This document shows positions 1,986-56,892 of a stretch of DNA of 64,000 bases, piece by piece (positions within the stretch are counted from its first letter, which is position 1; each line of letters begins with the position of its first letter). The position numbers were made by a program, and so were the translations under genes. The stretch is from Picocystis sp. L7. Its lineage: Eukaryota; Chlorophyta; Picocystophyceae; Picocystales; Picocystaceae. The stretch is from contig QXJR01000007.1 in the NCBI GenBank assembly GCA_020975725.1, positions 372,001 through 436,000 of the forward strand. The letters run 5' to 3'. The notes beneath the pieces were generated by a model. That model searched no databases. It was not told where the DNA came from and was given only the letters and a program-made list of their open reading frames with translations.

Positions 1986-2183
1986 AACCCTCCTCCATCC
2001 CGGGTATCACCCGTTTCCCTTCGGGTCTCCACCGACCTCGCTCCCTTCTCCCCTCCTCGGTGGCGAAAGGTGCATCGTCTGAAACCCCTCGTTGGTTCGG
2101 GTCCCTTGGCCAGGGGTGGGATGGACCCGAGACGAGCCAGTGGCAGAAGGAAGGACGAAGCCACACGTCCATCGCGACGAAGG

Positions 2184-4340: not shown

Positions 4341-4400
4341 GAAGGAGAAGCGTGTGCGAGGGGTTGGAGGGGCAAGGACGGGTTTGATTTGTTCCATTGG

Positions 4401-5201: not shown

Positions 5202-5581
5202 CCTTCCACGCACCTTTCGGATCCGATTCGATCGCGCTCTTCGCGTCGGAACGCGCGTGATCTCGTGCTTCGAGACGTCGTCTGCGACACGTCCGTTCGA
5301 TCGAGGAAAACAGACCCGGACGACGTCCCCTTTCGAAAGGGAAGGACGGTCCGATGCCAAGGGGAAGCTTAGTCGGGAGGTCTCGGTCGACCATCCCGGT
5401 CGAGTCCCTTCTGGGGCGAAAGGGTGACCCACGTGACGTACCTGGAAATCGGTGGCGAGGAGACCGCCCATCGAACGCTCAACCGGGCTGGATCGAGATC
5501 TTGGGGAATTCATCGATAGGTAATGGGGTAGATCTCGATGAATGGGGGTCTCGCAGTGGACCAACCGTCGGAAGGCACGAG
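5202..5581. promoter_or_regulatory. divergent intergenic region between nitroreductase and amino-acid transporter
   Basis: No supported gene. The 14-bp perfect palindrome CCCTTTCGAAAGGG lies at 5328-5341 and a related GGCGAAAGGG at 5416-5425. CGAAAGG-type motifs recur in several intergenic regions of the window, so this may be a shared promoter element. That role is inference only. Confidence 0.4.
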
Positions 5582-7150
5582 ATGAGCAATCGTCCGGCCG
5601 CCATGGACGATAACACGGCACGTGAAGAAGCGACTCAACCGCTCATCGAGGCTGCCATAGGTGCCGCAAGGGCGTCGAGGAGATCCGTGCACCGAGAAAC
5701 CTGGGAGGAACGGGCGGACTCCCTCCGAAGGGCCAGCTTTCAATCCAATGACGAAACCGACGACGTCGCCGTACACCACTGGCTCGAACAAGTGCACTAC
5801 GAGCAGGTGCTGGATGTGGATGGTGAAGTGATCGACACCGAACTAGAACCTAGGAGGATCGGATGGGCCCACGAAAAACTAGCACTGCAACTCGCGCCGG
5901 GCTCGATCAAGTCTTCCATCTTCACGCTGGTGATCACCATCATGGGAACAGGAGTGCTCTCTCTGCCGTACGCGTTTCTCAAGTCAGGGGTCATCCTCGG
6001 AATCATTCTGGTGGCCATATGCTCCGGTCTACTCTACTTCTCCGTGCAACTGTTGATCGCCTGTCGGGACCGCTCACAAATTACAACCTACCCGGGCCTT
6101 GCGTTCGTGGCCATGGGGACCCCAGCTGCTGTGTTCACGACGGTCATTCTGTTGCTTAACTTGTTTGGCGCCGGCGTGAGTTATCTGGTTGCACTGGGGA
6201 ACATTGCACCTACCATTGTGAAGGATCTCACGGGATGGAAGTATATTTTCTACGAACACGGGAAATACATCAACGACTCCAGCATCATTATCGCAGCTAT
6301 TGTGTGCTTTGTGCAGCTGCCCCTAGGATTCAAGAGAGAGTTATCCTCCCTACGGTTCACATCGCTGCTGGCATTTTTCTGCATAGTCTACCTGGTGGCT
6401 TACGTCACCCTCAACTATTTCAACTACTGCATCGGGGACGGCGTAGGAACTGCACACTGCATTTGGGAGAAAGGTTTTTACAAAGAGGTCAACTTATTCT
6501 CCACAAGCTGGTCTGACATCATGACATCCCTGCCGATCATGGTGTACGCTTTCACCTGCCATCCCTATGTCCTGCCCATATTCCAGGAATTGCATCACCC
6601 CATCAAGAGAAGGATGGAGAAGGTGCTCTACAGGGCAACCTTCCTTTCTGCCGGGCTGTATCTTTCTATGGGTCTGTTTGGGTACTTGACATTTCTGAAC
6701 AAGACAAATGGGAACATTCTACTGAACAACTTCCAGCATTCCTCTGGCTATCTGCTGGGATGCCTCGGGATATGCTCTTCGGTCACTTTGACGATGCCGC
6801 TGCTTGTGAACACAATGCGCAGGAGCCTGCAGCTGCTCTACCATGCCAGGTACGAAGACGCGACACACATACCACCTTTAGGAACACTGGCCCATGTCAC
6901 TGTCACGGTGGTGCTTTTGGTGTTGGCATTCCTTACTGCGGTGGTTGTTCCGGACTTGTCCTTAGCTTTCGGCCTCCTTGGTTCCACGGTCAATCCAATG
7001 GTGTGCTTCATCCTGCCGGCGCTTTTTTACTTGAAGATATATTCCCCTGGTGAGAACACGCTCACCAGGCTTGCGGCGGTGTTCATGGCGGTCACGATGT
7101 TCGGCTTTGGTGTCATCGGGCTGGTGCAGGTGATCAGGATTTGGAAATAG
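5582..7150 (+). CDS. amino acid/auxin permease family (AAAP) transporter
   Basis: A 522-residue protein from the ATG at 5582; an ATG at 5603 sits in a near-perfect Kozak context (gccgccATGG) and may be the real start. Residues 1-100 are hydrophilic and cytosolic, followed by about 11 transmembrane helices beginning at SSIFTLVITIMGTGVLSLPYA. That is the AAAP/SLC38-SLC36 signature segment, with GTGVLSLP in helix 1. Later landmarks include MVYAFTCHPYVLPIFQEL in helix 6-7 and a C-terminal helix ending in QVIRIWK. Members co-transport neutral or cationic amino acids with H+ or Na+ at the plasma membrane or vacuole. The substrate is not predictable from sequence alone. No intron seen; it converges closely (11 bp) on the DedA-like gene. 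Confidence 0.88.
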   Translation: MSNRPAAMDDNTAREEATQPLIEAAIGAARASRRSVHRETWEERADSLRRASFQSNDETDDVAVHHWLEQVHYEQVLDVDGEVIDTELEPRRIGWAHEKLALQLAPGSIKSSIFTLVITIMGTGVLSLPYAFLKSGVILGIILVAICSGLLYFSVQLLIACRDRSQITTYPGLAFVAMGTPAAVFTTVILLLNLFGAGVSYLVALGNIAPTIVKDLTGWKYIFYEHGKYINDSSIIIAAIVCFVQLPLGFKRELSSLRFTSLLAFFCIVYLVAYVTLNYFNYCIGDGVGTAHCIWEKGFYKEVNLFSTSWSDIMTSLPIMVYAFTCHPYVLPIFQELHHPIKRRMEKVLYRATFLSAGLYLSMGLFGYLTFLNKTNGNILLNNFQHSSGYLLGCLGICSSVTLTMPLLVNTMRRSLQLLYHARYEDATHIPPLGTLAHVTVTVVLLVLAFLTAVVVPDLSLAFGLLGSTVNPMVCFILPALFYLKIYSPGENTLTRLAAVFMAVTMFGFGVIGLVQVIRIWK

Positions 7151-7161
7151 AGTTTTTTTGG

Positions 7162-8028
7162 TCAGGCACTGCTTTCGTTTGCTGGCCTGTCTGTGCTTTC
7201 GTACGTTTTCCCTTCCTTTTTCTTGGCTTTCCACTGCGCGAAGGAGTACCCTAGGCCTGCTAGGAGAGGTCCAATCACATGTCCCACTGCGTTGGGCCCC
7301 GTCACGATGGCCAAAGCTGCCAGGTAGGGGCTGGCTGTGTTTCGCAGCGCATAACCCACCGCCAGCTGCAAGGGCATGGTGATCAACGCCCCTGCACACA
7401 CACCTTGGAAGAACTGCAAGGAGCTCACGCCGACGTATCCACAGATGATGCAGAGCGGTCCTCGGAATCCCAAGGAGAAGCGTTCCACCGCGCCAATCAT
7501 GTATCCCCATTTTCGCACCATGGCCATGGCTCGATCGAAGCTTCGTTGGTCCTTCACGAGCGCCTCTCGCATGCGTCGGAAGAGTCCCACGCGCAGTCCC
7601 ACGCCGACGAGGAAGGTGACCATGTCCGAGAGCACCACGCCCACGTACACCACCGCCAAGCATGCTGCCATCTGCGCCTTCGACGCGGCGTAGATGGAAG
7701 ATCCGTTGCTCAAGGTGGCGCCGATCCACACCACGAACGCGTCTTCGCTCAGTGGAACGCCCAAACCGGCGAGGACGAGGTAGGCGAAGTGGAACTGCAG
7801 CGGCATGGCGTGCGCACCTTCGAAGTAGGCGGCCACATGGGCGGTCCATTGTCCCCAGGACGTTCGACAAACGCACGTGGAACGTCTCGAAGGCGCGCGA
7901 AAGGTGCGTGGTGCGCGCCTGGGTCCGTGGAGGCGCGCCAGGCGCGTCGGCGTGGCCTGCATGGACGCGACGTTGTGGTGCGCGTACGTGTGCAGGACGT
8001 GCCTTTCGGATGGAGGCCGGGACATCAC
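7162..8028 (-). CDS. DedA/SNARE-associated (VTT-domain) membrane protein
   Basis: Up to 288 residues from the ATG at 8028; a second plausible start is at MQATPTRLARL, giving a basic, acid-poor N-terminus that looks like an organelle-targeting peptide. From about residue 70 there are four to five hydrophobic segments. GLGVPLSEDAFVVWIGA matches the re-entrant loop of DedA proteins, and RFSLGFRGPLCIICGY the second conserved loop (R-F-x-P-G-x-R in bacteria). DedA and VTT proteins are lipid scramblases or transporters of bacterial, ER and chloroplast membranes. The C-terminus is a lysine-rich tail. The call is by family pattern; cellular location is inferred. Confidence 0.75.
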   Translation of the reverse strand: MMSRPPSERHVLHTYAHHNVASMQATPTRLARLHGPRRAPRTFRAPSRRSTCVCRTSWGQWTAHVAAYFEGAHAMPLQFHFAYLVLAGLGVPLSEDAFVVWIGATLSNGSSIYAASKAQMAACLAVVYVGVVLSDMVTFLVGVGLRVGLFRRMREALVKDQRSFDRAMAMVRKWGYMIGAVERFSLGFRGPLCIICGYVGVSSLQFFQGVCAGALITMPLQLAVGYALRNTASPYLAALAIVTGPNAVGHVIGPLLAGLGYSFAQWKAKKKEGKTYESTDRPANESSA

Positions 8029-8070
8029 GCGTTCGATCCGCGGATCCTTCCATTTATTTCCTGGCGCATC

Positions 8071-8613
8071 TCAAGCACCGCCATGGGCGCTTGATCCCGC
8101 GTCGACGAGGTAGTTCTGTGGCAGCTCGTATCCGCGCACCAGAGGGACGTTCCCTACGCGTATCATGCCGACTTTCGGGAGCGCTTCCCAGTACAGCGTC
8201 ACGTTGAGCGCATTTCCGCGGAGTGCACGTCCTCTGCTGACGATGGGATACTCGTTCCTGATGTCTTCTTCGTGGAACACTTTGCGATCCGTCGAACGCA
8301 CGATGTGGTCCAAGAAGGTGATCTGGTTGTTCTCGTGGCGCGAGGTGGCGTACTCCGCTTGCAGCCAGAAGAACACCTGCTTGGTGTTCCAAGAGAAGAG
8401 CTTGCTGGTGTCCAGGTCCAGCTCCATGTTCAGCACGAGCATCTCGTTCCCTTTCGTGACGGGTTTGAAGTTCTCCACACGTCGGATCTGCAGCCGCGCA
8501 TCCACGTCTTTCCCGTGCCACCATTCGGTGGCCGCCGCCAGGACGCACACGAACGCCAAGCACGAGGTCGAGAACGAAAACAGGAGGTTCGCACGCGACG
8601 TCCAGGTGTGCAT
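8071..8613 (-). CDS. SPCS3: signal peptidase complex subunit 3 (SPC22/23)
   Basis: 180 residues from the ATG at 8613 (MHTWTSRANLLFSF), the family's usual length. One N-terminal transmembrane helix (about residues 9-33) anchors a lumenal domain. Conserved family landmarks are FSWNTKQVFFWLQAEY, the HENNQITFLDHIV stretch, YPIVSRGRALRGNALNVTLYWE and a final PLVRGYELPQNY. It is a non-catalytic but essential subunit of the ER signal peptidase that removes signal peptides from secretory proteins. An upstream in-frame extension to 8676 exists but breaks the expected topology, so I start at 8613. No intron. Confidence 0.94.
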   Translation of the reverse strand: MHTWTSRANLLFSFSTSCLAFVCVLAAATEWWHGKDVDARLQIRRVENFKPVTKGNEMLVLNMELDLDTSKLFSWNTKQVFFWLQAEYATSRHENNQITFLDHIVRSTDRKVFHEEDIRNEYPIVSRGRALRGNALNVTLYWEALPKVGMIRVGNVPLVRGYELPQNYLVDAGSSAHGGA

Positions 8614-9386
8614 GGCGATCGGATCCTCCGCGTCAGACGCGCAATCCGCAATCCGCAATCCGCCACTGGGTGCCACGGCTTCGATAAACCCTACGCTTAA
8701 ACCCCTTCGGGGCGAGCTTTACAACGGGGCATTACAACGGTGAGGGGGGGAGGGCGTGTGGGAGGGGGAGGGGGGGAGCCTCATCCAGCGGGTCACGTGC
8801 AGCGCCGTGCGATGGACGAACGTGGTGGAGCGGAAGGGAACGCACGAGGCTTGGCGGGAAGCGCAAGCGTGCGAGACGCGGGAGAGGATGCGAGGACGAG
8901 GACCGGCGGCGATGGCGGGAACGGACGTGCCGCATTGCTGTACAAGGGAACCTGGCCTCTCGGACGAGGGATGGGGTCCCCTTCACCAGGACCCGGTGCG
9001 GGTGTGAAAGCGACGACAAGCGTCGCACCAGCACCGCCCATCCGCGCTTCGAATGCTCGGGGCGCACGCGCAAGCGAAGCCGACCTTGGAAGCAGCACAC
9101 GTGTGTGGGAACCGGGACCCGACCAGAGCCTCGTGGTAGCGAAATCAACGGCGGTACGATCGGACGAGGTCCACATTTTCGCACCACGTCGCGTGTCGGA
9201 AGCAACCAACCAACCATGGGAAACCTCCACCCCTCGAAGAGAAAAAACTCCCTCGACCCTTCGGTCCCCGGCCCAAGGGAGGGCGAGGGGGCCGTTTCCG
9301 AGATCTCGCCCCAAGATATCGATAAGAGAGATCGAGATCTCGGTGCAGGGAGGGAAGGTGTCGATGCCGAGGACCGACGCGGAAGC
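8614..9386. other. divergent intergenic region between SPC3 and ABC transporter
   Basis: Long open frames run on both strands here but they overlap one another, change with strand, and have Arg/Gly/Pro/Ser-rich composition typical of GC-rich non-coding DNA. An in-frame extension of the ABC transporter reaches back to 9105 and could hold an alternative start. I see no other gene. G-rich runs lie at 8742-8775. Confidence 0.5.
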
Positions 9387-13334: not shown

Positions 13335-13776
13335 TGTTGAAAAATATTTATAGCTCAGTTAACCTACACTGCCTTTGGTTGAGTGAGTCTCTCGCACTTC
13401 TCCTCTAGGAGGTGCCCCTTCTCCTAAGTGGACCTGCGCTCTTTGGGTCTCGCTTGGAGGTGATGCTCCCGCGCCCGTTTGGTGTGGGATGCCTGACTTT
13501 GCAAAGACTCAACTGATCAATTACATGCATGCTTGCTCCCTTATATAGGGTGGATGTATCTGCGCTGCATTACATCATCCCCCCAACCGTGCAAGACTAT
13601 TCGTACAATCACAACACTATCACAACTTAGTATCTCCCCTTTTAGAAGGTGGGTACCTTCCTTCTAGACCCACTCCCTTGACCGGACTGGTCTTACATCA
13701 TCCTGCTATAGCCAGTACGGGTATACCGATCAAGTGTTTAAACTTCTCATGGTTGGAAACTTGTCATATTTTAACA
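13335..13776 (-). repeat. Copia LTR, left copy (3' LTR of the element)
   Basis: 442 bp, starts TGTTGAAAAATATTT and ends TTTTAACA. It matches the copy at 25146-25587 along its whole length by eye. It carries a TATATA-containing motif (13541-13550 on plus) that would be the TATA box of the element promoter on the minus strand in the other, 5' copy. Confidence 0.93.
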
Positions 13777-13806
13777 CTCCCGCCCAACCAGAGAAGTGAC
13801 CATTCT

Positions 13807-16800
13807 TCACATCTGTCGTACACCAATGTTCTGTACCAACTCGTTGAACCTTTCGGGTCTCAATACCTTTGTCAAGTAGTCTGCCAACATGTTTTCTGAA
13901 GGGCAGTACTTGTATACCATCTCACCTCTCACTCCACGCTCTCTGACAAAATGATGTCTCACATCAATATGCTTTGTCCTGCTCACACAATTCAAATCCT
14001 TGGCCATATGAAGCGCGGGCTGGTTATCACAATATATGGGTACTGGTTGTGATGCTTTTCCAAGTAATTCTGCAAGCATTGTTCTGAGCCAAAGTGCCTT
14101 TTTCACACATTCTGCAAGTGACATATATTCAGCTTCTGCAGTACTTGTGGCCACTGTGGATTGTAGTTGACTTCTCCAATCAATTATGCTTCCATTCACC
14201 ATGAACAGATATCCTGTTCTCGATCGCCGTGTCTCTTTGTCTGTCGCGAAATCGGCGTCGCAATATCCTTCCAATGCTATTTCACTTGGGTCACTCTGCT
14301 TCAAATCTCCAAGAACAATTCCATGACCTTTTGTTCCCTTGAGATAACGTAGCACTCCTTTTGCTACTGACCAGTGTTTCTTGCTTGGCTTACTCATGTG
14401 TCTTGAAAGAACTGCGGCGGCATGTCCAAGATCCGGTCGTACCGTCGTGGATAGGTAGAGTAACTGTCCAACCAATTGCTGATAGCTTGGCACAATTTCT
14501 GGATCACATACTTGTTGTGGCTCGCTCACGTCCTCACATATAGGTATCTTCTTCTCCTTAGCTTCACTCATTCCATACGCCTCTACCATTCTCTCAACCT
14601 TAGATGGTTCACTGAGGTGTAATATTCTTTTGCTTCGGTCTCGTTTGACTTGCATTCCACAAAAGGTGTCAATCTCACCCTTCGATCCAACTTTGAATCT
14701 CTCGCATATTTTCTTGACCAATTCTTGCATAAGATCTTGGCAACTTGATGCCAATAGTATGTCGTCCACGTAAACGCACACAAAGCAAACTTCATCTTGT
14801 TTCTTGCATATGAGCAAAGTTTCATCCACACTTACGCATCGGCACTCCAAATCATTTGACAAGAATGATATGAGTTCCTTGTTCCATTCTCTTGGCGCTT
14901 GTTTAAGTCCATAAAGACTCTTCTTAAGTTTGTAGACATTTCCTGGTTCTTCCTCGATGCCTTCCGGAATGTCCAAGTATATCTCTTCTCTGAGATTTGC
15001 ATGTAGAAAGGCTGCCTTTATATCTAGTTGCTGTATGTCGTAGTCTTTTATCGCTGCCACTGTCAAGAATAGGCGTACTGCTGGCTTCGAGACAACCGGA
15101 GAAAAAATATCCGTGTAGTCTACGCCTTCACGCTGCTGATAGCCTTTCACAACTAACCTTGCCTTGTACCTTTCCACGTTCCCAAGTCCGTCTCTTTTCA
15201 CCTTGAAGATCCACTTCGTTTGCAACGGTTTTCTACCTTGGGGCAACCTTGAAACTTCCCATGTTTCATTTTCCAATAGTGCTCGTTTCTCGTCTTCAAT
15301 TGCTTCTTTCCACATGGATTTCTCGGGCCGTTCCATTGCTTCATGATAACCTGAAAATTCATCGGGTAGAATCGTGGCTTTAGCATTAAGTCCCTTGCTC
15401 GCCATGTGTTTGTAGTCCAAGGTTTTCCTCTCTCTCAAGTTGTATACGCTTGTTGGCTCTTTCATTGCTTCATCTTTATCCGCTTCAACATTGTCGTCTT
15501 CGATTGCTTGACTTTGATCTACCTCAGTCTCTCTCTGAGGATCCAAGCTTTCGTCCATTTGTTGAACGGTATCGCTATCCATAGTAGTCTTCACAGTTGC
15601 TTCACTTGGTGTTGTTGTTGGATAACTACCTTCGTCATGGCTTGGTTGAGAAATGATGTTCGGTTCCATGAGTAGCTCGGGCACCGTTCCACTCGTTAGG
15701 CTATTATCCATCTTGCCCGCTTGGTCTTCCAGGAACACCGCAGTGCGCGATCTCAACACATTCATCTTCACAAGAAAACGATAAGTAGTGCTGTTAGCAT
15801 ATCCAACGAAGATTGCGGGTTCCGCCCGTGGTCCAAGTTTCCCAACTTGACGGTCTCGTGGTACATGCACGAGAGCTTTGCATCCCCAACGTTTGAGTTG
15901 TTTGTAGTTGGGTTGCTTTCCAGTCAGCATCTCTAATGGGCTCTTGCTTTGTTTTCCATTTATGTTGCATGGCTTCAAGTTTCTCACGTAGTTGACGGTT
16001 CGCATTGCTTCTCCCCAAAGGACGGTGGGTAGCTGGGTGTCTTCAAGCAAAGCTCTAGTCCCTTCCATCAACGTGCGATTGAGTCGTTCCACTTGACCAT
16101 TTTGTTGTGGCTCATATCCTGCTGTCGTCTCGTGATTGATCCCTTTTTCGCTCAACCAAATTCTCATATTCTCTTGTAGAAACTCTTTGCCACAATCGGT
16201 CCGTATGCATTTCACATGTTCACCGGACAATTGTTCCAGCCATGTGATTGCTTGCTTTGCTGCATCTGTAGCTTGACCCTTGTTTGGGAGTAGTGTGACA
16301 AGACTAAACTTCGTTGCGGCGTCCACCGCTACAAGAGCATATGTTTGTCCTCCAACGGCCTCCGGTGTGACTGGTCCAATCAAATCCATTGAGACCCTAT
16401 CTAACGGCTTCTTCAATGTCTCATCACGTGCATACGCTTTACGGCTTAGTTTCGCTTTGACACATGCTTCACACGATTTCATGTCATCCGGCAATCCAAT
16501 TTGTTTCAATGTGTTGGAACTTGCATGGCACAATCGTTTATGCCATAGATCCGCCTCCGCTTGTAGGGCATGCACACCGTCCGTGTGTGTGTGCAACTCC
16601 ACGATGTCTTGATCTCGTTGAAGTACGCAAGTTCCATCACTCCTCATAATTATGTTAGCTCCCATTTGGCGACCCATCTTTGTCGCGGAGATCAAGTTGT
16701 ATGCCATGTTTGGAACATACAACACATTTGAAAGTCGAACCTCCAACTTTCCAATCTTGAGCGTCACGTTTCCTTTACCTGCAATGGCCGTGCTCCGACC

Positions 16801-17646
16801 ATCGGCCACCATAATTTGACCGCTTGCTTGTTCCAAAGTTCCCTCGTCAAACTTCTTTAGGTCTCCTGTCATATGATCTGACGCTCCACTATCGAGTATC
16901 CAGTCCCTTATGCTTGGACTGCTTTCCATTGTTACTCGCATACTCCGACCTTGCTTGTCGGTCTCGGTACCTTGTCGGCAATAACGGGCCATATGTCCTT
17001 GCTTACCGCACTTGTAGCACTTGCCATTGAATTTCCTTTTCTTTTCCTTGGCGTGTCCAACTCTCGCAACTAGTGGTTGGCTTCCTGTCTCATTTCGATC
17101 GTGGTTCACATTTGCTTGTTCCATCACCACGTCGTCACCTTGCATGTTGTACTCTTCGTTTACGAGTATCATCTTCAATCGATCCAATGTTGGCATTTCA
17201 CCGCTTGCATTGATCGTTGTCTTCACGAGATTGTAATCTCTCGGTAACCCATTGAGTGTTGTGGCGACTATGTCAGCTTCCGATATCTTCTCGCCACTTT
17301 CTCGGAGTTCGCTCGCTAGCGAGAGTGCCCTTGTGTAGTATTGCATCACGCTCTCGCTCGGCATTTTCTTCAATGTCCGATACTTCCCAAGTATGCGCAT
17401 TGATGTTGCGGCATTTTGTATCCCATAGCTTGCATGTAGGCGGTCCCAAACATCCTTGGCAGAGAGCATCGTGTCTCGTTGCAATAGCGAGCGTTCTTCT
17501 TTGTTGACTCGCCGAAGCATTGCTGCTCGTACCATCTTTGACTTTTGTTTGGTTTCCGAATCCATTTCATCATGCGACATTGCATTCTCCAACACATCGT
17601 CGAGCCCTGCTTCTTCCATTGCTAGGAGCACTGACCCTTTCCACAA
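13807..17646 (-). CDS. Copia gag-pol polyprotein (main open part)
   Basis: 1279 residues in one frame. Order from the N-terminus: gag (UBN2-like) region, zinc knuckle CYKCGKQGHMARYC, aspartic protease WILDSGASDHMTGD, integrase with the HHCC finger (HKRLCHAS...CEAC) and the catalytic core beginning DLIGPVTPEAVGG, reverse transcriptase with YVDDILLAS, and RNase H with GYCDADFATD. This order (integrase before reverse transcriptase) defines Ty1/Copia. The Gypsy element lies just beyond the N-terminal end of this frame. The annotated start is the first Met of the continuous frame and is not claimed to be the element's original start. Confidence 0.92.
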   Translation of the reverse strand: MWKGSVLLAMEEAGLDDVLENAMSHDEMDSETKQKSKMVRAAMLRRVNKEERSLLQRDTMLSAKDVWDRLHASYGIQNAATSMRILGKYRTLKKMPSESVMQYYTRALSLASELRESGEKISEADIVATTLNGLPRDYNLVKTTINASGEMPTLDRLKMILVNEEYNMQGDDVVMEQANVNHDRNETGSQPLVARVGHAKEKKRKFNGKCYKCGKQGHMARYCRQGTETDKQGRSMRVTMESSPSIRDWILDSGASDHMTGDLKKFDEGTLEQASGQIMVADGRSTAIAGKGNVTLKIGKLEVRLSNVLYVPNMAYNLISATKMGRQMGANIIMRSDGTCVLQRDQDIVELHTHTDGVHALQAEADLWHKRLCHASSNTLKQIGLPDDMKSCEACVKAKLSRKAYARDETLKKPLDRVSMDLIGPVTPEAVGGQTYALVAVDAATKFSLVTLLPNKGQATDAAKQAITWLEQLSGEHVKCIRTDCGKEFLQENMRIWLSEKGINHETTAGYEPQQNGQVERLNRTLMEGTRALLEDTQLPTVLWGEAMRTVNYVRNLKPCNINGKQSKSPLEMLTGKQPNYKQLKRWGCKALVHVPRDRQVGKLGPRAEPAIFVGYANSTTYRFLVKMNVLRSRTAVFLEDQAGKMDNSLTSGTVPELLMEPNIISQPSHDEGSYPTTTPSEATVKTTMDSDTVQQMDESLDPQRETEVDQSQAIEDDNVEADKDEAMKEPTSVYNLRERKTLDYKHMASKGLNAKATILPDEFSGYHEAMERPEKSMWKEAIEDEKRALLENETWEVSRLPQGRKPLQTKWIFKVKRDGLGNVERYKARLVVKGYQQREGVDYTDIFSPVVSKPAVRLFLTVAAIKDYDIQQLDIKAAFLHANLREEIYLDIPEGIEEEPGNVYKLKKSLYGLKQAPREWNKELISFLSNDLECRCVSVDETLLICKKQDEVCFVCVYVDDILLASSCQDLMQELVKKICERFKVGSKGEIDTFCGMQVKRDRSKRILHLSEPSKVERMVEAYGMSEAKEKKIPICEDVSEPQQVCDPEIVPSYQQLVGQLLYLSTTVRPDLGHAAAVLSRHMSKPSKKHWSVAKGVLRYLKGTKGHGIVLGDLKQSDPSEIALEGYCDADFATDKETRRSRTGYLFMVNGSIIDWRSQLQSTVATSTAEAEYMSLAECVKKALWLRTMLAELLGKASQPVPIYCDNQPALHMAKDLNCVSRTKHIDVRHHFVRERGVRGEMVYKYCPSENMLADYLTKVLRPERFNELVQNIGVRQM

Positions 17647-17684
17647 GTTCCAATTTCCTTGTACAAGGATTGGAATGTCGCCCT

Positions 17685-18206
17685 TGTAGCGTCCGACTGA
17701 TGTGGCACGTGCTCAGGGTCTCACCAGCACCGAAAAGAGCGTCGTTTGAAGGTGGCGAAGTGGAGGAGGCGTTGGGAAGGCGGTAGCTCTTCCGAAAGAA
17801 AGCAAGTGAACTAAAAAGACAAGGGGAGGGACCTAGGGGTCTACCTCTCTCTCAACCGCCCTTGAGCGGTTGAAGACAGCCTGGCGGGGCTCCCCAACTG
17901 CCCACGTGGGGGGCGAGCGATGCATTGGATGGTCCCGAAGGGTCGTTTCCAAGCGACCCTGGCCTGTCCGTCGCATCGCCACCGTTGAGTTGCCCCAGCC
18001 CTACCTTCTAGAAGGGATTGAGGGAAGGGATTCCAAACACCACAACCCTTCAATCCCGGTCTGTTCCGTTCGAGTCCTCGATGGGGAGGTCCCTTAGTAA
18101 GGGGCGAGTCCCCTTACTACAAGGGTTCTGACCGGACCAGGTCTCGACCCAACTTGGAGAGGGGTTCGAAGGGGCCCTCTCATGGATAGGGCCTCTAGGG
18201 CCTACA
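17685..18206 (-). repeat. Gypsy LTR, left copy (3' LTR)
   Basis: 522 bp with TGTAG/CTACA inverted ends. It contains two good stem-loops: CAACCGC/GCGGTTG (7-bp stem, near 17864-17883) and AGTAAGGGG/CCCCTTACT (9-bp stem, near 18096-18118). Short open frames inside it recur identically in the other LTR and are not genes. Confidence 0.93.
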
Positions 18207-18237
18207 TTCTCCTGGTTCCTGTCACTAACTGACACAC

Positions 18238-21200
18238 CTAAGCATGATTGAAATCATAAATGTAACTGATGGGGTCATAGAGCATAGTCTGAATGTCTGC
18301 CACGGTATGTGTTGATTCATATCCATCTGTCCATTGCACACGGCATGTATTGTCATGCTTCTGGATCACTGTTCCCTGGTAGAATTCTGATTTGTCATCG
18401 GTGACATGGAAGAGGTCCTGTACCACGGCATGCAGCAGGTTCGCAGGTGGTTTGAACCGCGGTCGTTTACGGACTTGCATGGGCAGGTGGCTTGAGGTCC
18501 AGGTGTTGACCATGATGGGTGCAGGACTCTGCAAATATACCTGTTGTTTGTGCTGCTTAACATGCTGAAAGTTGTTCTGTGTTATACCTGTTTCTGGTAT
18601 GCAGCCATTTGTTTCTTCCAATGAGAGGAATTCTTCCAAAAGATAGCTTGTTTCATCGATCCACATGAACGGGGTCGAGACGGAGTCCGTTTGGACCCAA
18701 TATCGAACGCTGGCTGCTGGGAACAACGAATAATCTCGCAACAAGTAACGGATGGTGTGATGAACTGGCTCCACTTGAGTGTCTGGAGGCAGTAATGCAT
18801 GCTGCGGATGTCCTGAATGTGCAGGAAATACTGTGAGGTCCGAATCCACCCATTTTTCCAAGCGGTCTGCATTAATACGATCAGAATATGGGGAGTTGTT
18901 GGGTAGCTCCAGGCGATACGCTCCTTTCCCCAACTCCTCTGCAATGGTGAATGGACCTACATAGTAGGGATCGAGTTTGTGTTTGTCAGTAGGACTTTTG
19001 AGTCCATACTGAACCTTGACCAAATCTCCTGGCTTGAAGCTACGTGGCGTACGATTGTTTCGCAGTTCACGGAATGAATCTGCCTGTTTCTGCAATTTCT
19101 GCAGAATAGCTTTGTATACCTGTTGCTGTTGTTTCAAAAAGGTTTCAATACGATGATCGGTTGAACAAACAGATGTGTTTGCATAAGCATCCTGCATAGT
19201 GGGTAATTGCAGGTGCCAGGGTAATCTAGAGGGGCACCCATAAACTGCAACAAACGGCGAAACCTTGGTGACAGCGTGCTCGCTGTCATTATATGCATGG
19301 GCAGCAGCCTGCAAGTAGTTGTCCCAGTTGCGGCGATCGTCGCAGGTTAGTCTCAAGGTCTGTAGCAAGGTTCGGTGTTGTCGTTCGGCTCCGCCCTGTG
19401 ACTGTGAATGATATGGGCTACCTGTGGTATGTTGAACCCCGAGCGCAGAACAAAAGGCCCTAAATAATGAGCGGTAAGCTGGTCCATTATCTGTGTGGAT
19501 CCTCTGTGGGGTGTGAAATTGATATATCAGACTGTCCATGATACACTGTGCTTGGCGGAATGCGCTCCAGGTGGTATGGATAGGAATATAGATCGCAAAT
19601 TTGGTGAAACGATCAACGATTGTTAGTACTCCATTGTGGCCTTTGCTGGTAAGCGGGAGGCCTTCCACGACATCTAAGACCACAGTATGAAATGGATATG
19701 GGTAGAATGCTGTCTCTGGAAAGTATGGCTGGTGACGCGAGGCTGTACCTGGCTTTTGTAATTGACAGGTAGGACACCGCGCCACAAAATGCTGAATTTG
19801 GTTGTGCATATTCTTCCATCGGAAGTGCCGTTTCGCTGCTGCGTAAGTGCGAGCGGTTCCAAAGTGGGCCTGGTCATGCACCAGGTGCAAAAGGTCTTGA
19901 CGGAGAGCGTCATCGGCTGGGACCCATACCACTGCTGGACCATCATAGGAAGTAAAGCTATTAGCTGTTGGCTTGTCAAACAGCAGCCCATCTCTAACCT
20001 GCAGGTGATGGGGAGGACTGTTTACCATGGCGTTGTATTGAGAATCTGATATTGCTGCTCTCTGCAATCTTTGGATGATAGGTGTGGCCTGTGAATCTGT
20101 GAGCATGGCTGCAACTTTGGAGGGGCTGCGAAGAACGCACACAGTCGGTGTATGACTGCGGCTAGCTAGCGGTCGAAGCGTCCCTGTGTGGTTCTGTAAA
20201 AAGGCAGTCAGCAAATTTGCAATCCACGCTACAGGAAAGGCATTGCCGCACATTCGATGGCGAGAGGCCTCTGAAACTTGGGCAGCAGCGGTGTCATTGG
20301 CCTCCATTCCAACTAAGCGCTCTTTTTCCTGAATCTGTAGTGGCCTCAATGTTCCATCAGAGTTTTGGACCCAGGTAGACCGACTTCGGTCGCTGTGCGA
20401 TTTGTGGGAGGCCATCAAGGTGGGGCACTTTGTAATAGGTTGCCCCAGTTCGTCGGTAGGCACAGTAGATCCGGGTGTTAAGCAGTCTTGCCATAGAACG
20501 GGGAGGTCCTGCAAGGGTAACAATTCTGAAGGGTTAGGCAGGGAGGTCCAGCAGTAACGGACGCGTCTCTGCGGGCAGCATTGTGCCAAATCATGTAAAT
20601 GTGGCTCTCCTAACAGGTCACTAATCTGCTGGAAATCAGCCCCCAAATGCCCCGCAAAGGGGGTACATTCAATGATGTAGCTTGGGTGGCCCAGTCGCTC
20701 CAGCAAGCGATGAGCGGAGGTAAACAGTTCTCGATGGTCGCGTAAGCCATAGCTCGGATGATCCTTTGAATTATTGGCCTTGGAAAAGGGCTGGCATGGA
20801 ACGCCAGCGATGACCAAGTCTACTGGAGGCAGTTTGCGGCGGTCCGTTAGTAGGCGGACATCGTTACCATAACGAAAAATGTCGGTCCGCGAGAAAAGGC
20901 CAGGTCGGTCAAGACTGACATCTGCAAAGACGCGTTGAATGACTTGGCGTGCGTCGTGATCGAGTTCTACTGCGATGTAATCAATCTGTAATGTAGCACC
21001 AGGGGGAACTAGATGCCACAGGGCCCGTAACACGGTACCCATTCCTGCACACACATCCAGGATTCTGACAATGGGCTGTCTGTCTTGACTGCTGTGCCTA
21101 GAAAGGTAGTCTGCAGTAATGTTTTCGGGACCCGGGCGATAGTGAACTTCGAACGGTGCGAAGTACGATAATTTAGCTATCCAGCGCTGATCGCGTGGAC

Positions 21201-23265
21201 TTAATTGTTCTGATGACTTGCTCTGAAGATACATGCTGGCCCGGTTATCGGTGATGACTGAAAACTGTTGTCCAAATAGTAGGTGACGCCAATGCTGGAG
21301 CGCATAAACGATAGCGCAGGTCTCTTTCTCTGCTGGATGATAGTTTTTCTGGGCAGAATTGAATTTTTTGGACCAAAACTCCACAGGTTTCCATTGATTT
21401 GTGGAAACATCTTGTAACAGGACGGCCCCCATACCGTGATCTGATGCATCTGTCTCGATGCGGATGGGGCGGTCTGCGTGGAAAAGCTGTAGCACTGGCC
21501 TGGAAGTGAGTAACTGTACCAGTTGAGTGAAGGCAGCATCATGCTGTGGTTTCCAGTAATGCTGAAAGTCGTGTTTATACTGTTTACGACTGAGCTCTGT
21601 GAGTGGGGCTGCAATGTCTGAATAATTCTGCACGAAGCGCATGTAAAACTGGCAGAGGCCTAGGAAGGCCAAATTCTGCTTGTGGGTTGTTGGTTTGGGG
21701 AATTTCTCGATCCGCGAAACCAAGTGGTCAGCACATGTTAGTTGTCCTTCGCGAATGCGAAAGCCAACCCACTCCAGGGTGCGATGAAAGAAGAAGCATT
21801 TCGATCGCTTAAGTCGGATGTCACTTTGCTGGCAGGTGTCCAAGAATTGCTCAAGGTGTGCAAAATGTTCTGGGATGTTGGCAGAATGGACCAAGATGTC
21901 ATCCATGTATACCTTCAGAAAAGGTAAGGTACCGAAGATTCGGTTCATCATGCGTTGAAACATGGCTGGAGCATTAGCGAGCCCCATCGGCATAACCCGC
22001 CATACGTAACTCCCGAACGGGGTCACAACAGCAGTCTTCTCCACGTCGGCCGGGTTCATCGGCACCTGGTGGAAACCATCCAGGGCATCCACTGACGAAA
22101 AGACATGGGACCCTTGTAAATTCTGCAGGTGGTCATCAATGCGGGGTAACGGGTAGCGGTCCTTGATTGTTGCCGCGTTAAGCAGCCTATAATCAAAGAC
22201 AACTCTCCAGCCCCCATCCTTCTTTGGTATAAGCAGCACAGGTGCCCCCCAACTGGATCCAGCGCAGATGTCCATCTTCCCCGCGTCAACGTACTCCGTA
22301 AGCAGTTCACGTAGAGCTTCTTGCTGTTGCGGTGACAAGCGGTAGTAGTTGCGGTGTACAGGTTGTGTGCCTGGTTCCACATTAATATTGAAAGACTCCC
22401 CAGGTGTCCGTTGAGGGGGAATCGAGGTTCGTTTCTCGAAGCAAGACTTGTATTGTAATAGAAGTCTGTCCAAGTGCTCCTGATCATCAGGGCTTAGCTT
22501 GTAAGCTTCGCTGAGCTGGCTGCGGAAACTAGCCAGATCCTGTTCCTCGCTCGTCAACTCAAATGTTGAGTCCAGGGGCTGTACCATTAAAAAGAGACAC
22601 TCAGTTGACTGTAGAGCTTCCTTCACCTCTGATGGGGGTACAATCAGGTCCAGTTTACGGGCTTTGATGAATGACTCATCGCCCTGGACTCGATGAACAG
22701 AACCCGCTGGATCGCGGAGTTCCATATACTGCTGCTGCCAGTTGAGCTGCAGCAGATACTTATGACAGAAATCGACGCCGAGTATGCAACTGAAGGTTTC
22801 GATTGGCGCAACTCCAAAAGTGTGGGTTGCCTGAAAAGTATCGATGGTCAGCAGGACTTCGATTACTGGCGCTTGGTATGTCTCTGTTCCTACAGCCAGG
22901 CTGAAATTGAAGAAGTGTCCAGTAGGCTTCCAATTCTGCAGGGCAGGATCTTGATGTTTGAGTTGTTGAAAGGCTTGGGTACTCAAGAAGGAGTTGCTCG
23001 CAAGCGTGTCCACATAAGCTTGAGTCTGCAATGTGGGAACCTCGGTGTTTCCCAGGTAGCATCTCGCCGTGAGAAATTCACAGCGAGGACGGGGATTGGG
23101 TGATGCTCTGAGGGATACCACTTGGCCTGGATATAAATTTGTATGGCTTGCTGTCTCCATGCATGCACCAGGTGGTGGTTCTTCTCCCGGCTCCATCCTG
23201 ACAGCCCCAACTGTCAGGTGGAGCCCCTTTAGTTTTTTGGAGACATGGGGGACGAATGACGGCAT
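18238..23265 (-). CDS. Gypsy pol polyprotein with embedded DNA methyltransferase
   Basis: 1675 residues. Approximate order: retropepsin-like protease (about 75-175), reverse transcriptase (about 325-505, with YMDDILVHS), RNase H (about 600-725, with TDASDHGMGAVLL and ITDNRASMYL), cytosine-5 methyltransferase (about 731-1023), integrase (about 1120-1400, with the HHCC finger H...H...CPTCQ and the core beginning VLDVVEGLPL), then an SH3-like GPF segment (DPYYVGPFTIAEELG). A final small domain (TCRVQWTDGYESTHT) resembles a Tudor/chromo-type barrel and may act in targeting, which is inference. The frame is continuous and looks whole. Confidence 0.95.
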   Translation of the reverse strand: MPSFVPHVSKKLKGLHLTVGAVRMEPGEEPPPGACMETASHTNLYPGQVVSLRASPNPRPRCEFLTARCYLGNTEVPTLQTQAYVDTLASNSFLSTQAFQQLKHQDPALQNWKPTGHFFNFSLAVGTETYQAPVIEVLLTIDTFQATHTFGVAPIETFSCILGVDFCHKYLLQLNWQQQYMELRDPAGSVHRVQGDESFIKARKLDLIVPPSEVKEALQSTECLFLMVQPLDSTFELTSEEQDLASFRSQLSEAYKLSPDDQEHLDRLLLQYKSCFEKRTSIPPQRTPGESFNINVEPGTQPVHRNYYRLSPQQQEALRELLTEYVDAGKMDICAGSSWGAPVLLIPKKDGGWRVVFDYRLLNAATIKDRYPLPRIDDHLQNLQGSHVFSSVDALDGFHQVPMNPADVEKTAVVTPFGSYVWRVMPMGLANAPAMFQRMMNRIFGTLPFLKVYMDDILVHSANIPEHFAHLEQFLDTCQQSDIRLKRSKCFFFHRTLEWVGFRIREGQLTCADHLVSRIEKFPKPTTHKQNLAFLGLCQFYMRFVQNYSDIAAPLTELSRKQYKHDFQHYWKPQHDAAFTQLVQLLTSRPVLQLFHADRPIRIETDASDHGMGAVLLQDVSTNQWKPVEFWSKKFNSAQKNYHPAEKETCAIVYALQHWRHLLFGQQFSVITDNRASMYLQSKSSEQLSPRDQRWIAKLSYFAPFEVHYRPGPENITADYLSRHSSQDRQPIVRILDVCAGMGTVLRALWHLVPPGATLQIDYIAVELDHDARQVIQRVFADVSLDRPGLFSRTDIFRYGNDVRLLTDRRKLPPVDLVIAGVPCQPFSKANNSKDHPSYGLRDHRELFTSAHRLLERLGHPSYIIECTPFAGHLGADFQQISDLLGEPHLHDLAQCCPQRRVRYCWTSLPNPSELLPLQDLPVLWQDCLTPGSTVPTDELGQPITKCPTLMASHKSHSDRSRSTWVQNSDGTLRPLQIQEKERLVGMEANDTAAAQVSEASRHRMCGNAFPVAWIANLLTAFLQNHTGTLRPLASRSHTPTVCVLRSPSKVAAMLTDSQATPIIQRLQRAAISDSQYNAMVNSPPHHLQVRDGLLFDKPTANSFTSYDGPAVVWVPADDALRQDLLHLVHDQAHFGTARTYAAAKRHFRWKNMHNQIQHFVARCPTCQLQKPGTASRHQPYFPETAFYPYPFHTVVLDVVEGLPLTSKGHNGVLTIVDRFTKFAIYIPIHTTWSAFRQAQCIMDSLIYQFHTPQRIHTDNGPAYRSLFRAFCSALGVQHTTGSPYHSQSQGGAERQHRTLLQTLRLTCDDRRNWDNYLQAAAHAYNDSEHAVTKVSPFVAVYGCPSRLPWHLQLPTMQDAYANTSVCSTDHRIETFLKQQQQVYKAILQKLQKQADSFRELRNNRTPRSFKPGDLVKVQYGLKSPTDKHKLDPYYVGPFTIAEELGKGAYRLELPNNSPYSDRINADRLEKWVDSDLTVFPAHSGHPQHALLPPDTQVEPVHHTIRYLLRDYSLFPAASVRYWVQTDSVSTPFMWIDETSYLLEEFLSLEETNGCIPETGITQNNFQHVKQHKQQVYLQSPAPIMVNTWTSSHLPMQVRKRPRFKPPANLLHAVVQDLFHVTDDKSEFYQGTVIQKHDNTCRVQWTDGYESTHTVADIQTMLYDPISYIYDFNHA
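20197..21075 (-). other. cytosine-5 DNA methyltransferase domain inside Gypsy pol
   Basis: Pol residues about 731-1023. C5-methyltransferase motifs appear in the canonical order: motif I ILDVCAGMGTVLRAL (AdoMet binding), motif IV VIAGVPCQPFSKA with the catalytic Pro-Cys-Gln, motif VI region YIIECTPFAG, motif VIII QRRVRYCWTSLP, motif IX-like PLQIQEKERLVGME, and motif X-like MCGNAFPVAW. The PCQ form of motif IV and the RYCWTSLP segment mix bacterial and DNMT3-like features by eye. The domain is in frame with the preceding RNase H and the following integrase, so it would be made as part of the polyprotein. Confidence 0.93.
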
Positions 23266-24524
23266 TGTTTTGCATCATGTCCATAACGGCGGCATCGCAA
23301 ACATAGGGAATTGGCAGTACACTGTTTTTGCTGATCTGGAGAGAGAGTGGCTCCCAAAGGGAGGTCCTTCAAGTCTGTTTGGACCCTGACGATGCGTTCT
23401 TGAAGTTCCTTGGAGAGGTCAGCAAACCTTTTGGCGATGCGGCCAGCAGGGGTAGTTGCTGCCCTCTTTGATGTAGGATCAGAATGGGGCATCGCACGGA
23501 TGGTGGCGGTCGATGTTGTGCGGACCGTATTGGCTCCTGTAAGCTTGTTGCCGCGGGCTGCAGCTTTGGCCCGTTCTCGTTCTTCAGCCTCTACCTTCAA
23601 GGCGGCGGCACAGACCCCCCAGGGGGACATGTCCGGAGCGCGTCCAAGTTCCACTAGCAACTGAAAGTGTTGTTCTATTTTGTTGCTCATCGAGTAAGGT
23701 AGGCCGACACGCAGTTTCGTGGCGATGTCGCATTCGCTGATTTTCATGCACGTAGGGTCTGTGCTCATGTTTACCACAAAACTCAGCAAGAGTAGCCGAT
23801 TCAAGAATTTCACCACGTCTTCCTTGATCGGGTGCATGCGGGCGCGCTGAAATTCCTTCCACGCATCCGGCCCAGGATCGCGTCGCTGAAATGTTTCTTT
23901 CAACAAATCATAGAGAGCCGGAAGATGCGATACGCGATTCTTGTCACCCATTATGATGTTGTCCATCATGATTCTTGCGGTTCCGCTCAATGTTTGGAGG
24001 GCAAGCACAACTTGTTGGGTATCGTTCAAGGCGTAACCTTGTACCCAGCAAGACACTTCACGATACCAATGAGTAAGTGAATATGGGTCATGGGTGAGTT
24101 CGGCACCTGAGAATGACTTGGGCTTCGTGAGCGTCACACCTTGCAAGCGTTGCGAGGCTCCCATGGCTTGGTACATATCAGTGAGGGAATGCAACCCTTT
24201 CTCGGAGAGGGGATGCACCGCAAGAGGAACGTGCTCTGATGGTTTTAAGTCTTGGTCTGATGGTTCTTGCGGAGGAGCCTCATGTGGAAGCTCCTCTTCT
24301 TCCTCTTGCGCTTCATTTTCCACGGGGTCTCTGCCAACGGGCGGTGCACCAACAACTCCATGTCCGGTAAGGGAAAGCGTACGAAGTTGTTCGAGCTCAC
24401 TTTCCAGCAACGAATTCCTCGCTTCGAGGTCTTTCCGACCTTCTTTCTCTCTTTCGAGCTCCTCTCTCATTCGTTGAAAACGGGTGAGGGTCCCCAAGGG
24501 GACATCTTCTTCAACATCACTCAT
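23229..24524 (-). CDS. Gypsy gag protein
   Basis: 431 residues starting 22 nt from the 5' LTR. The N-terminus is an acidic and basic coiled coil (RMREELEREKEGRK...). The central part is a retrotransposon gag-type helical capsid region (SLTHWYREVSCWVQGYAL, LYDLLKETFQRR). One C-terminal zinc knuckle, CLRCRRYGHDAKQC, would bind RNA. It overlaps pol by 37 nt in another frame. Confidence 0.9.
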   Translation of the reverse strand: MSDVEEDVPLGTLTRFQRMREELEREKEGRKDLEARNSLLESELEQLRTLSLTGHGVVGAPPVGRDPVENEAQEEEEELPHEAPPQEPSDQDLKPSEHVPLAVHPLSEKGLHSLTDMYQAMGASQRLQGVTLTKPKSFSGAELTHDPYSLTHWYREVSCWVQGYALNDTQQVVLALQTLSGTARIMMDNIIMGDKNRVSHLPALYDLLKETFQRRDPGPDAWKEFQRARMHPIKEDVVKFLNRLLLLSFVVNMSTDPTCMKISECDIATKLRVGLPYSMSNKIEQHFQLLVELGRAPDMSPWGVCAAALKVEAEERERAKAAARGNKLTGANTVRTTSTATIRAMPHSDPTSKRAATTPAGRIAKRFADLSKELQERIVRVQTDLKDLPLGATLSPDQQKQCTANSLCLRCRRYGHDAKQCRHSSPMSPKN

Positions 24525-24546
24525 CGGTGGGTGATGGCTTCGACAA

Positions 24547-25068
24547 TGTAGCGTCCGACTGATGTGGCACGTGCTCAGGGTCTCACCAGCACCGAAAAGA
24601 GCGTCGTTTGAAGGTGGCGAAGTGGAGGAGGCGTTGGGAAGGCGGTAGCTCTTCCGAAAGAAAGCAAGTGAACTAAAAAGACAAGGGGAGGGACCTAGGG
24701 GTCTACCTCTCTCTCAACCGCCCTTGAGCGGTTGAAGACAGCCTGGCGGGGCTCCCCAACTGCCCACGTGGGGGGCGAGCGATGCATTGGATGGTCCCGA
24801 AGGGTCGTTTCCAAGCGACCCTGGCCTGTCCGTCGCATCGCCACCGTTGAGTTGCCCCAGCCCTACCTTCTAGAAGGGATTGAGGGAAGGGATTCCAAAC
24901 ACCACAACCCTTCAATCCCGGTCTGTTCCGTTCGAGTCCTCGATGGGGAGGTCCCTTAGTAAGGGGCGAGTCCCCTTACTACAAGGGTTCTGACCGGACC
25001 AGGTCTCGACCCAACTTGGAGAGGGGTTCGAAGGGGCCCTCTCATGGATAGGGCCTCTAGGGCCTACA
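24547..25068 (-). repeat. Gypsy LTR, right copy (5' LTR)
   Basis: 522 bp, matches the copy at 17685-18206 over its full length by eye. As the 5' LTR it would drive transcription toward lower coordinates. It is followed directly by the remaining 5' leader of the Copia element (25069-25145). Confidence 0.93.
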
Positions 25069-25127
25069 CCCTTGTCTATCTTGTATCGCGCCATGATGTG
25101 TTCTTCCATTGTGTAGGTGTCTCCGGG

Positions 25128-25145
25128 CAACCAAGGCTCTTAACC
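25128..25145 (-). promoter_or_regulatory. Copia primer-binding site, apparently against a tRNA-Lys(CUU) anticodon arm
   Basis: On the minus strand the 5' LTR is followed by GGTTAAGAGCCTTGGTTG. Its complement reads CAAGG-CTCTTAA-CC, the anticodon stem, loop (C32 U33 CUU A37 A38) and start of the 3' stem of a tRNA-Lys(CUU). Drosophila copia is known to prime from an internal, anticodon-region fragment of tRNA-iMet in the same way. The assignment is by base complementarity only. Confidence 0.5.
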
Positions 25146-25587
25146 TGTTGAAAAATATTTATAGCTCAGTTAACCTACACTGCCTTTGGTTGAGTGAGTC
25201 TCTCGCACTTCTCCTCTAGGAGGTGCCCCTTCTCCTAAGTGGACCTGCGCTCTTTGGGTCTCGCTTGGAGGTGATGCTCCCGCGCCCGTTTGGTGTGGGA
25301 TGCCTGACTTTGCAAAGACTCAACTGATCAATTACATGCATGCTTGCTCCCTTATATAGGGTGGATGTATCTGCGCTGCATTACATCATCCCCCCAACCG
25401 TGCAAGACTATTCGTACAATCACAACACTATCACAACTTAGTATCTCCCCTTTTAGAAGGTGGGTACCTTCCTTCTAGACCCACTCCCTTGACCGGACTG
25501 GTCTTACATCATCCTGCTATAGCCAGTACGGGTATACCGATCAAGTGTTTAAACTTCTCATGGTTGGAAACTTGTCATATTTTAACA
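25146..25587 (-). repeat. Copia LTR, right copy (5' LTR)
   Basis: 442 bp, matches 13335-13776 by eye. The motif CTTATATAGG at 25351-25360 reads as a TATA box on the minus strand. Confidence 0.93.
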
Positions 25588-56775: not shown

Positions 56776-56892
56776 CCCATCCCACCGCCCACTGCTTAAC
56801 TCGATCGTGAACCTCGGAGGAGGCCATGGGTCGCTCGACCGGCCTCCCCCTCTCCCTGCCTCTCCTGTCTCCCTGCCCCGCTGCCTCGACCC

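Follow-up and report, generated by a model that had tools for sequence, protein, structure and literature searches.

A Ty3/gypsy retrotransposon of a green alga with a DNMT3-type cytosine methyltransferase domain in its Pol

Cytosine methylation is a widespread eukaryotic weapon against transposons. C5-cytosine methyltransferases carried by retrotransposons themselves were described by de Mendoza et al. (2018) in LINE and DIRS elements of Symbiodinium and in a gypsy element of Klebsormidium, for which self-methylation was proposed; in yeast assays the DIRS enzymes methylate CG, and the LINE and gypsy enzymes gave negative results regarded as inconclusive (PMC5890265). A 2025 survey places retrotransposon DNMT3 enzymes in streptophytes and dinoflagellates and names LTR Copia and DIRS elements (PMC12344493), and a 2019 opinion paper mentions, without going into cases, that Ty3/Gypsy and DIRS elements of green and red algae can bear methylases (PMC6338049). 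Mobile elements are also reported with other DNA or RNA modification enzymes: a brown-algal DNA transposon has an N4/N6 methyltransferase (PMC12477816), and gypsy elements of orchids have an m6A demethylase domain (PMC9289625). The locus described here is a Ty3/gypsy long terminal repeat (LTR) retrotransposon found in a stretch of 64,000 nucleotides (hereafter the window, G000:C5:372001-436000) of the Picocystis sp. L7 genome, which comprises 20.5 Mb in 30 contigs. An original prediction, made from the letters of the window alone, had placed a C5-methyltransferase in frame between RNase H and integrase in the pol gene of this element and had named Symbiodinium and Klebsormidium as precedents; both are known cases, but in the account given in PMC5890265 the Symbiodinium elements are of the LINE and DIRS types and only the Klebsormidium element is gypsy.

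A methyltransferase domain between RNase H and integrase

The pol frame of the element, on the minus strand, is stop-free over 1678 codons (18238-23274), and its Pfam domains follow in the order RVT_1, RNaseH, DNA_methylase (PF00145), Integrase_H2C2, rve and SH3_Tf2-1, with reverse transcriptase (RT), RNase H and integrase in Ty3/gypsy order within a single Pol. All five motifs quoted in the original prediction lie in one frame and the placement of the domain between RNase H and integrase stands, while its extent shifts slightly, from the claimed 20197-21075 to 20176-21072. The isolated domain matches the C5-methyltransferase profile PF00145 at 44.3 bits, against a cut-off of 22; the original prediction had treated the lack of such a match as a refutation. 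Motifs I, IV, VI, VIII and X are found in un-rearranged order, with the catalytic Cys (827 in Pol numbering), Glu (869) and Arg-x-Arg (904 and 906); in DRM enzymes motifs IX-X precede motifs I-IV, whereas the element's domain runs from I to X.

The predicted fold of the domain is confident and DNMT3-like, nearer to DNMT3 than to other C5-methyltransferases, and the DNMT3A/3B catalytic domain is both the top PDB profile match and the top structural match. Motif order and catalytic residues are the same in DNMT3A/3B, to which the domain is 23-28% identical in structural alignments, the differences being its embedding in Pol and its motif IV, PCQPFS instead of the PCNDLS of DNMT3A/3B. Judged by its profile match and predicted model, the enzyme is DNMT3-type although its motif IV is of this other form. 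In the methyltransferase tree, which has long branches and a single DNMT3, the retrotransposon enzymes group with a DNMT3A segment (92/68) and with a C5-methyltransferase of a marine phage (100/98 for the group with DNMT3A), encoded on the IMG/VR contig IMGVR_UViG_3300030328_000292 (L047). This phage enzyme is a freestanding gene, 29% identical to the element's domain, and it scores 66 bits with the profile of the retrotransposon enzymes, the highest of the outgroup rows tested, against 50 for the DNMT3A segment and 44 for the best bacterial enzyme; the retrotransposon methyltransferase may thus have come from a phage-like source. Phage and giant-virus methyltransferases are also found among the fold matches of the domain.

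The remaining features of the element are those of a complete LTR retrotransposon (Table 1). Its upstream open reading frame (ORF) is called gag by position and CCHC knuckle only, because a Pfam search of this ORF gives no match. The protease-like motif was labelled by eye, and Asp_protease_2 is matched weakly and only in a relative, L076. A chromodomain in the Pol tail is not claimed, since it was read by eye from the predicted model and the structural comparison covered the barrel alone.

The gypsy element lies within a copia element, which was named from a reading of its ORF and not from a profile search, and whose 442-bp LTRs are 100% identical and flanked on either side by the 5-bp duplication GAAGG. 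Given the identical LTR pairs of both elements, both insertions are recent, so that two recent transpositions are seen nested in each other. Elsewhere in the window, a tandem array of units of about 80 bp (56881-57260) overlaps ORFs on both strands.

Table 1. Coordinates of the gypsy element, of the copia element that surrounds it and of a sister-family element (window positions unless a contig is given)
Feature	Position	Strand	Remarks
Complete Ty3/gypsy LTR retrotransposon with methyltransferase	17685-25068	minus	paired LTRs, TG..CA ends, target duplication
Gypsy 5' LTR	24547-25068	minus	522 bp, 100% identical to 17685-18206
Gypsy 3' LTR	17685-18206	minus	522 bp
4-bp target duplication CCCT	17681-17684 and 25069-25072		bounds the gypsy element
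Gag-like ORF	23229-24524	minus	CCHC knuckle CLRCRRYGHDAKQC at its end; frame differs from that of pol, overlaps pol
Pol ORF from first ATG	18238-23265	minus	
Protease-like motif VDTLASN	22993-23013	minus	labelled by eye
Reverse transcriptase (RVT_1)	21754-22230	minus	pol residues 349-507, Pfam E 8e-35
RNase H	21160-21555	minus	pol residues 574-705, Pfam
DNMT3-type C5-cytosine methyltransferase (by predicted model)	20176-21072	minus	pol residues 735-1033; motifs I 21034-21063, IV 20782-20802, VI 20659-20676, VIII 20545-20571, X 20224-20253
Integrase	19405-19914	minus	H2C2 zinc finger 19750-19914 and rve core 19405-19695, Pfam
Integrase C-terminal SH3-like domain (SH3_Tf2-1)	18889-19023	minus	35 bits, cut-off 30
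Possible Tudor-like barrel, Pol tail	18283-18426	minus	
Copia element split by the gypsy insertion	13335-25587	minus	LTRs 13335-13776 and 25146-25587
Copia ORF	13807-17712		named from ORF reading
Sister-family element L074	G000:C19:155158-165148		ORF 1253-9256 minus; LTRs 956-1722 and 9081-9849

Copies, conservation and exchange of the domain

Searching the genome with the methyltransferase domain of the window gives 131 matches at 52-100% identity, and at least 159 non-overlapping methyltransferase places are reached once the divergent L005/L066 family (34% identical) and a handful of further partial matches are added; copy counts in the genome are lower bounds, drawn from the best-scoring candidates. 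A search with the RT gave 150 matches, 136 of them at 64-99% identity to the window RT and the other 14 at 55%. The original prediction had made much depend on whether other copies of the family carry the domain, and at least 125 of the 136 close RT matches are indeed followed, on their own strand, by a methyltransferase, which in 120 cases lies at about 700 bp. By this count 11 close matches are without one; one stops at a contig edge, and one of the eleven, C3:649159, has a weak DNMT3A match downstream. None of the 14 RT matches at 55% identity has a downstream methyltransferase.

Stop-free sequence extends across the domain in 114 of the 131 copies, and in 55 of them the surrounding frame stays open for 1650 codons or more. 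All 56 distinct uninterrupted domains (at least 270 residues; 35 places in this genome and 21 public ones, with 5 of the 43 loci entered having no uninterrupted domain of that length) retain the catalytic Cys, the two Arg and the Asn of motif X, and 55 retain the Glu, the sole exception being L044, with Lys. Among public sequences, 17 long proteins contain the methyltransferase alongside the RT, RNase H and H2C2 domains, and a separate sequencing project includes a copy that is 60% identical. The genome matches, these long proteins and the confident predicted fold put the domain well outside anything that chance would produce. The expectation of another case in a compact algal genome was thus correct, in the form of a gypsy pol with a conserved in-frame domain. 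As a separate observation, a 4.7-kb contig (L065, PUNI01000121.1) in a Rhodobacteraceae metagenome-assembled genome encodes this gypsy Pol, with a methyltransferase 96% identical to that of L076; it is probably eukaryotic contamination of a bacterial genome.

The ratio of nonsynonymous to synonymous substitution rates (dN/dS) of the methyltransferase is 0.057 (L017-L024), 0.062 (L076-L065, the latter being the public contig) and 0.072 (L066-L069) in the only three pairs with dS below 1.5, which were used out of 55 pairs of 11 representatives; the remaining pairs are saturated, unmeasurable or have dS above 2 (for example L024-L066, with dS 2.69 and a ratio of 0.29). In the same pairs, where measurable, the ratio is 0.052 and 0.045 for RT and 0.027 and 0.048 for integrase. 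The RT row of L077 was dropped from this analysis, being the RT of a neighbouring truncated element, and L077's own RT was used in the trees and the identity comparison. Since the methyltransferase values are near those of RT and integrase, the domain is under much the same constraint as the core enzymes.

In every one of five groups of elements the methyltransferase is 10-18 points below RT in conservation, as in the window group, with identities of 83% for RT and 71% for the methyltransferase, and the same order is seen between groups W and X (RT 70%, methyltransferase 58%, integrase 69%). The order is reversed when the window-type groups are compared with the L077 family, RT being 36-39% identical, the methyltransferase 47-48% and integrase 32-33%; column bootstraps of single pairs give a methyltransferase-RT difference of +0.08 to +0.11, with lower bounds just above zero (0.003 to 0.033). 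No reversal is seen between group W and the L066 family (RT 42%, methyltransferase 36%, integrase 34%), and the values for L066 and L077 are 36% for the methyltransferase, 35% for RT and 41% for integrase. Because the methyltransferase is more alike than RT between the window-type groups and L077, the simplest reading is a transfer after the RTs had diverged, in which the methyltransferase would have passed between the two lineages at the same RNase H-integrase junction. The cassette spans families whose RTs are 35-42% identical and appears, from these identities, to have moved between families.

A sister family without a recognisable C5 domain, represented by L074, joins the window clade with 85/85 in the tree of RT and RNase H and with a split of 100/99 in the integrase tree, both of them midpoint-rooted without an outgroup and with a long branch; given this placement, L074 either lost the domain or diverged before the window clade gained it. 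In its gag-pol of 2668 codons, a C5-methyltransferase is not recognisable in the roughly 280 residues between RNase H and integrase. A dead remnant of such an enzyme was considered for this segment, with a weak hhalign probability of 0.8% and 18 of 2000 shuffles equal or better, and is suggestive but not claimed. The L074 frame enters the 3' LTR, which there encodes a Dam-type adenine methyltransferase domain (PF05869, E 1e-11) as the C-terminus of gag-pol. Genome-wide there are 101 Dam matches, with 23 same-strand pairs 7.9-8.3 kb apart (ten contigs entered), a spacing expected of a domain present in both LTRs.

Host methyltransferases and the proposed function

The C5-methyltransferases of the host include MET1-like (L001), DNMT2-like (L002, classed by eye and by the tree), chromomethylase-like (L003) and PWWP-bearing (L004) enzymes. 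In L003 (G000:C1:788062-791451) the BAH, chromo and methyltransferase domains are colinear with PDB 4fsx/7ubu (E 1.7e-123), which we take to be the maize chromomethylase ZMET2. An ORF of L087 (G000:C20:154900-157900, ORF 1537-2742, minus) is DRM-like, with rearranged motifs, and its best match is PDB 4onq (E 7.5e-38), presumably tobacco DRM, followed by DRM2. DRM is stated to be restricted to streptophytes in the 2025 survey (PMC12344493); the DRM-like L087 sits in a green alga. L004 (G000:C1:535012-538299) has a C-terminal PWWP domain and a long branch in the tree, and since PWWP-bearing ChloroDNMTs are named in the same survey (PMC12344493), it is perhaps one of them. A segment of human DNMT3A, used in an intron-blind genome search, produced 131 matches, which by eye fall in retrotransposon places or beside retrotransposon domains, except for the DRM-like gene and C4:801453; with C4:801453 left aside, no un-rearranged native DNMT3 was found by this search. 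That the retrotransposon enzymes are the host's sole DNMT3 was rejected, since the DRM-like gene with rearranged motifs exists.

The green affinity of the host is indicated by its green-type Lhca/Lhcb light-harvesting genes, the matched chains being, we assume, from green organisms, and no phycobilisome linker was found in an intron-blind genome search; a red-algal host was rejected on these grounds. The host MET1 was searched over 648 residues, and throughout these it matches, at 100% identity, a protein that EukProt labels Pavlova lutheri; named proteins of Coccomyxa, Picochlorum, Micractinium and Trebouxia come next, at 54-59%. Two methyltransferase fragments of the Pavlova lutheri set are likewise 100% identical to copies in this genome. 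With both MET1 and retrotransposon domains identical, the set includes either this green alga or one very close to it, and a spread of the element to haptophytes was dropped for this reason. The EukProt entries P0058, P0021 and P0026, all under Pavlova lutheri, are 100% identical to this alga over the aligned stretches, probably by mislabelling or culture contamination.

The reading preferred here, and held with moderate confidence, is that of a recently active gypsy element whose Pol carries a catalytically intact-looking DNMT3-type enzyme that methylates the element's own new DNA, with upkeep by the host to follow. The architecture, the copy number, the conserved catalytic residues, the purifying selection and the DNMT3-like profile match and predicted fold are established by the results above, and methyl transfer by the domain is predicted from its conservation. 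Methylation of the element's own complementary DNA (cDNA) would be the likeliest role because the enzyme belongs to Gag-Pol, within which it would travel alongside RT and integrase; it would then act on fresh element DNA, probably methylating CG sites, either ahead of integration or in the course of it, and the MET1-, chromomethylase- and DRM-like enzymes of the host could maintain the methylation of the new copy. The likely benefit would be that incoming DNA resembles methylated host DNA and that the new copy is damped, thus allowing the host to survive. The original prediction had likewise suggested methylation of the element's own or its host's DNA, perhaps as a way to hide from host silencing or to exploit it.

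Several points weigh against self-methylation. The related family does well (14 RT matches) although no C5 domain is recognisable in it, and the Klebsormidium gypsy enzyme was inactive in yeast, a result that its authors call inconclusive (PMC5890265). The CpG observed/expected ratio is 0.73 in the element and 0.68-0.80 in 12 related loci, compared with 0.96-0.97 in the rest of the window and 1.00 in L074, but it is also 0.79 in the methyltransferase-free copia (0.51 in its LTR) and 0.86 in one host gene, the comparison consisting of one copia, one L074-family element and one host gene. The depletion is modest, and it is unspecific because a copia without a methyltransferase is depleted as well. 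CpG transitions between copies occur at a median of only 1.65 times the non-CpG rate per site (range 0-3.7, above 1 in 53 of 64 copy pairs, which overlap and are non-independent). CpG loss was accordingly set aside as proof of self-methylation, being undiagnostic in view of the copia; the pattern fits general methylation of elements and does not single out self-methylation.

The depletion of copia would also agree with an enzyme acting mainly in trans, whereby the Pol of active copies methylates host DNA or other elements and shapes the methylome, with little effect on its own cDNA, and the abundance of intact copies (long open frames around 55 of the 131) and the lack of an un-rearranged native DNMT3 in the intron-blind DNMT3A search, C4:801453 again aside, point in the same direction. 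However, the MET1-, chromomethylase- and DRM-like genes of the host can account for methylation of all elements, and the tie of the domain to Pol favours activity within the particle, so that action in trans is considered rather unlikely. Retention of the domain for DNA or RNA binding, Pol folding or integration, and not for methyl transfer, is improbable: fused domains can acquire structural roles, and the sister family has its 280 or so residues at the same place with no recognisable methyltransferase, but a structural use would not call for the intact Cys and both Arg seen in all 56 domains, or for the Glu seen in 55. A slightly poorer chance is given to an enzyme that serves as a weapon or shield against other mobile DNA, marking or silencing rival elements or DNA viruses, a role suggested in PMC6338049 for the accessory domains that retrotransposons carry; the phage and giant-virus enzymes among the fold matches would suit it, but no virus link was seen, and the lone copia examined is also young, with identical LTRs, so that no exclusion is visible. 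A one-off chimera or assembly join can be dismissed, being refuted by the 131 copies, the 17 long public proteins, the 60%-identical copy elsewhere and the presence of the domain downstream of no fewer than 125 of the 136 close RT matches.

A broader proposal, built on self-methylation and speculative, with a small but real chance of being right, is that self-methylation is a standing need of gypsy elements in this genome, served by interchangeable modules. These would be either the DNMT3-type cassette, swapped at the RNase H-integrase junction, or the Dam-like enzyme that the sister family, having lost or never possessed the cassette, encodes in its LTR, the repeat that contains the promoter, and they would place 5-methylcytosine (5mC) or N6-methyladenine (6mA) on the element's own copies. 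The two marks differ in place and meaning in green algae (PMC12633428). These observations suggest that some genomic parasites write the marks normally used to silence them. With a DNMT3 of its own maintained by selection in more than 100 copies and several gypsy families, this element lineage makes it testable why transposons would write this mark, and the small genome (20.5 Mb), together with a gypsy family without a recognisable C5 domain, would allow a side-by-side comparison in a single long-read methylome.

Comparison with described retrotransposon methyltransferases

Among the described systems, SymbioLINE-Dnmt of Symbiodinium is likewise an algal retrotransposon that exists in many copies and carries a C5-methyltransferase, but it is a LINE, and its enzyme belongs to an orphan lineage and has an ORF of its own, upstream of the one for RT (PMC5890265). 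SymbioDIRS-Dnmt3, also of Symbiodinium, shares with the present element a DNMT3-type domain in one ORF with the reverse transcriptase, and the CG methylation seen in yeast is that of SymbioDIRS; it has a tyrosine recombinase and split repeats, whereas the element described here has a DDE (rve) integrase and plain LTRs (PMC5890265).

The closest counterpart is KnitGypsy-Dnmt3 of Klebsormidium nitens, likewise an LTR gypsy element with a DNMT3-type domain in the Pol ORF, conserved catalytic residues and purifying selection (PMC5890265). By their description in that paper, its repeats are DIRS-like, in contrast to the plain direct LTRs and 4-bp duplications found here, and its host is a charophyte, while the host here is chlorophyte-like. 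Unlike KnitGypsy-Dnmt3 as described, the domain found here is shared by several deeply divergent families, which seem to have exchanged it. The two elements are likened from the published description, and no Klebsormidium-named proteins are among the public protein matches of the element. Searches of open-access papers brought up no recognised account of a chlorophyte gypsy element with a DNMT3 domain, the described elements being those of dinoflagellates and streptophytes. Compared with KnitGypsy-Dnmt3, the element therefore appears to be new while following the same principle: its LTRs are ordinary, its host lineage is another, the domain accompanies at least 125 of the 136 close RT matches, and there are indications that the cassette was exchanged.
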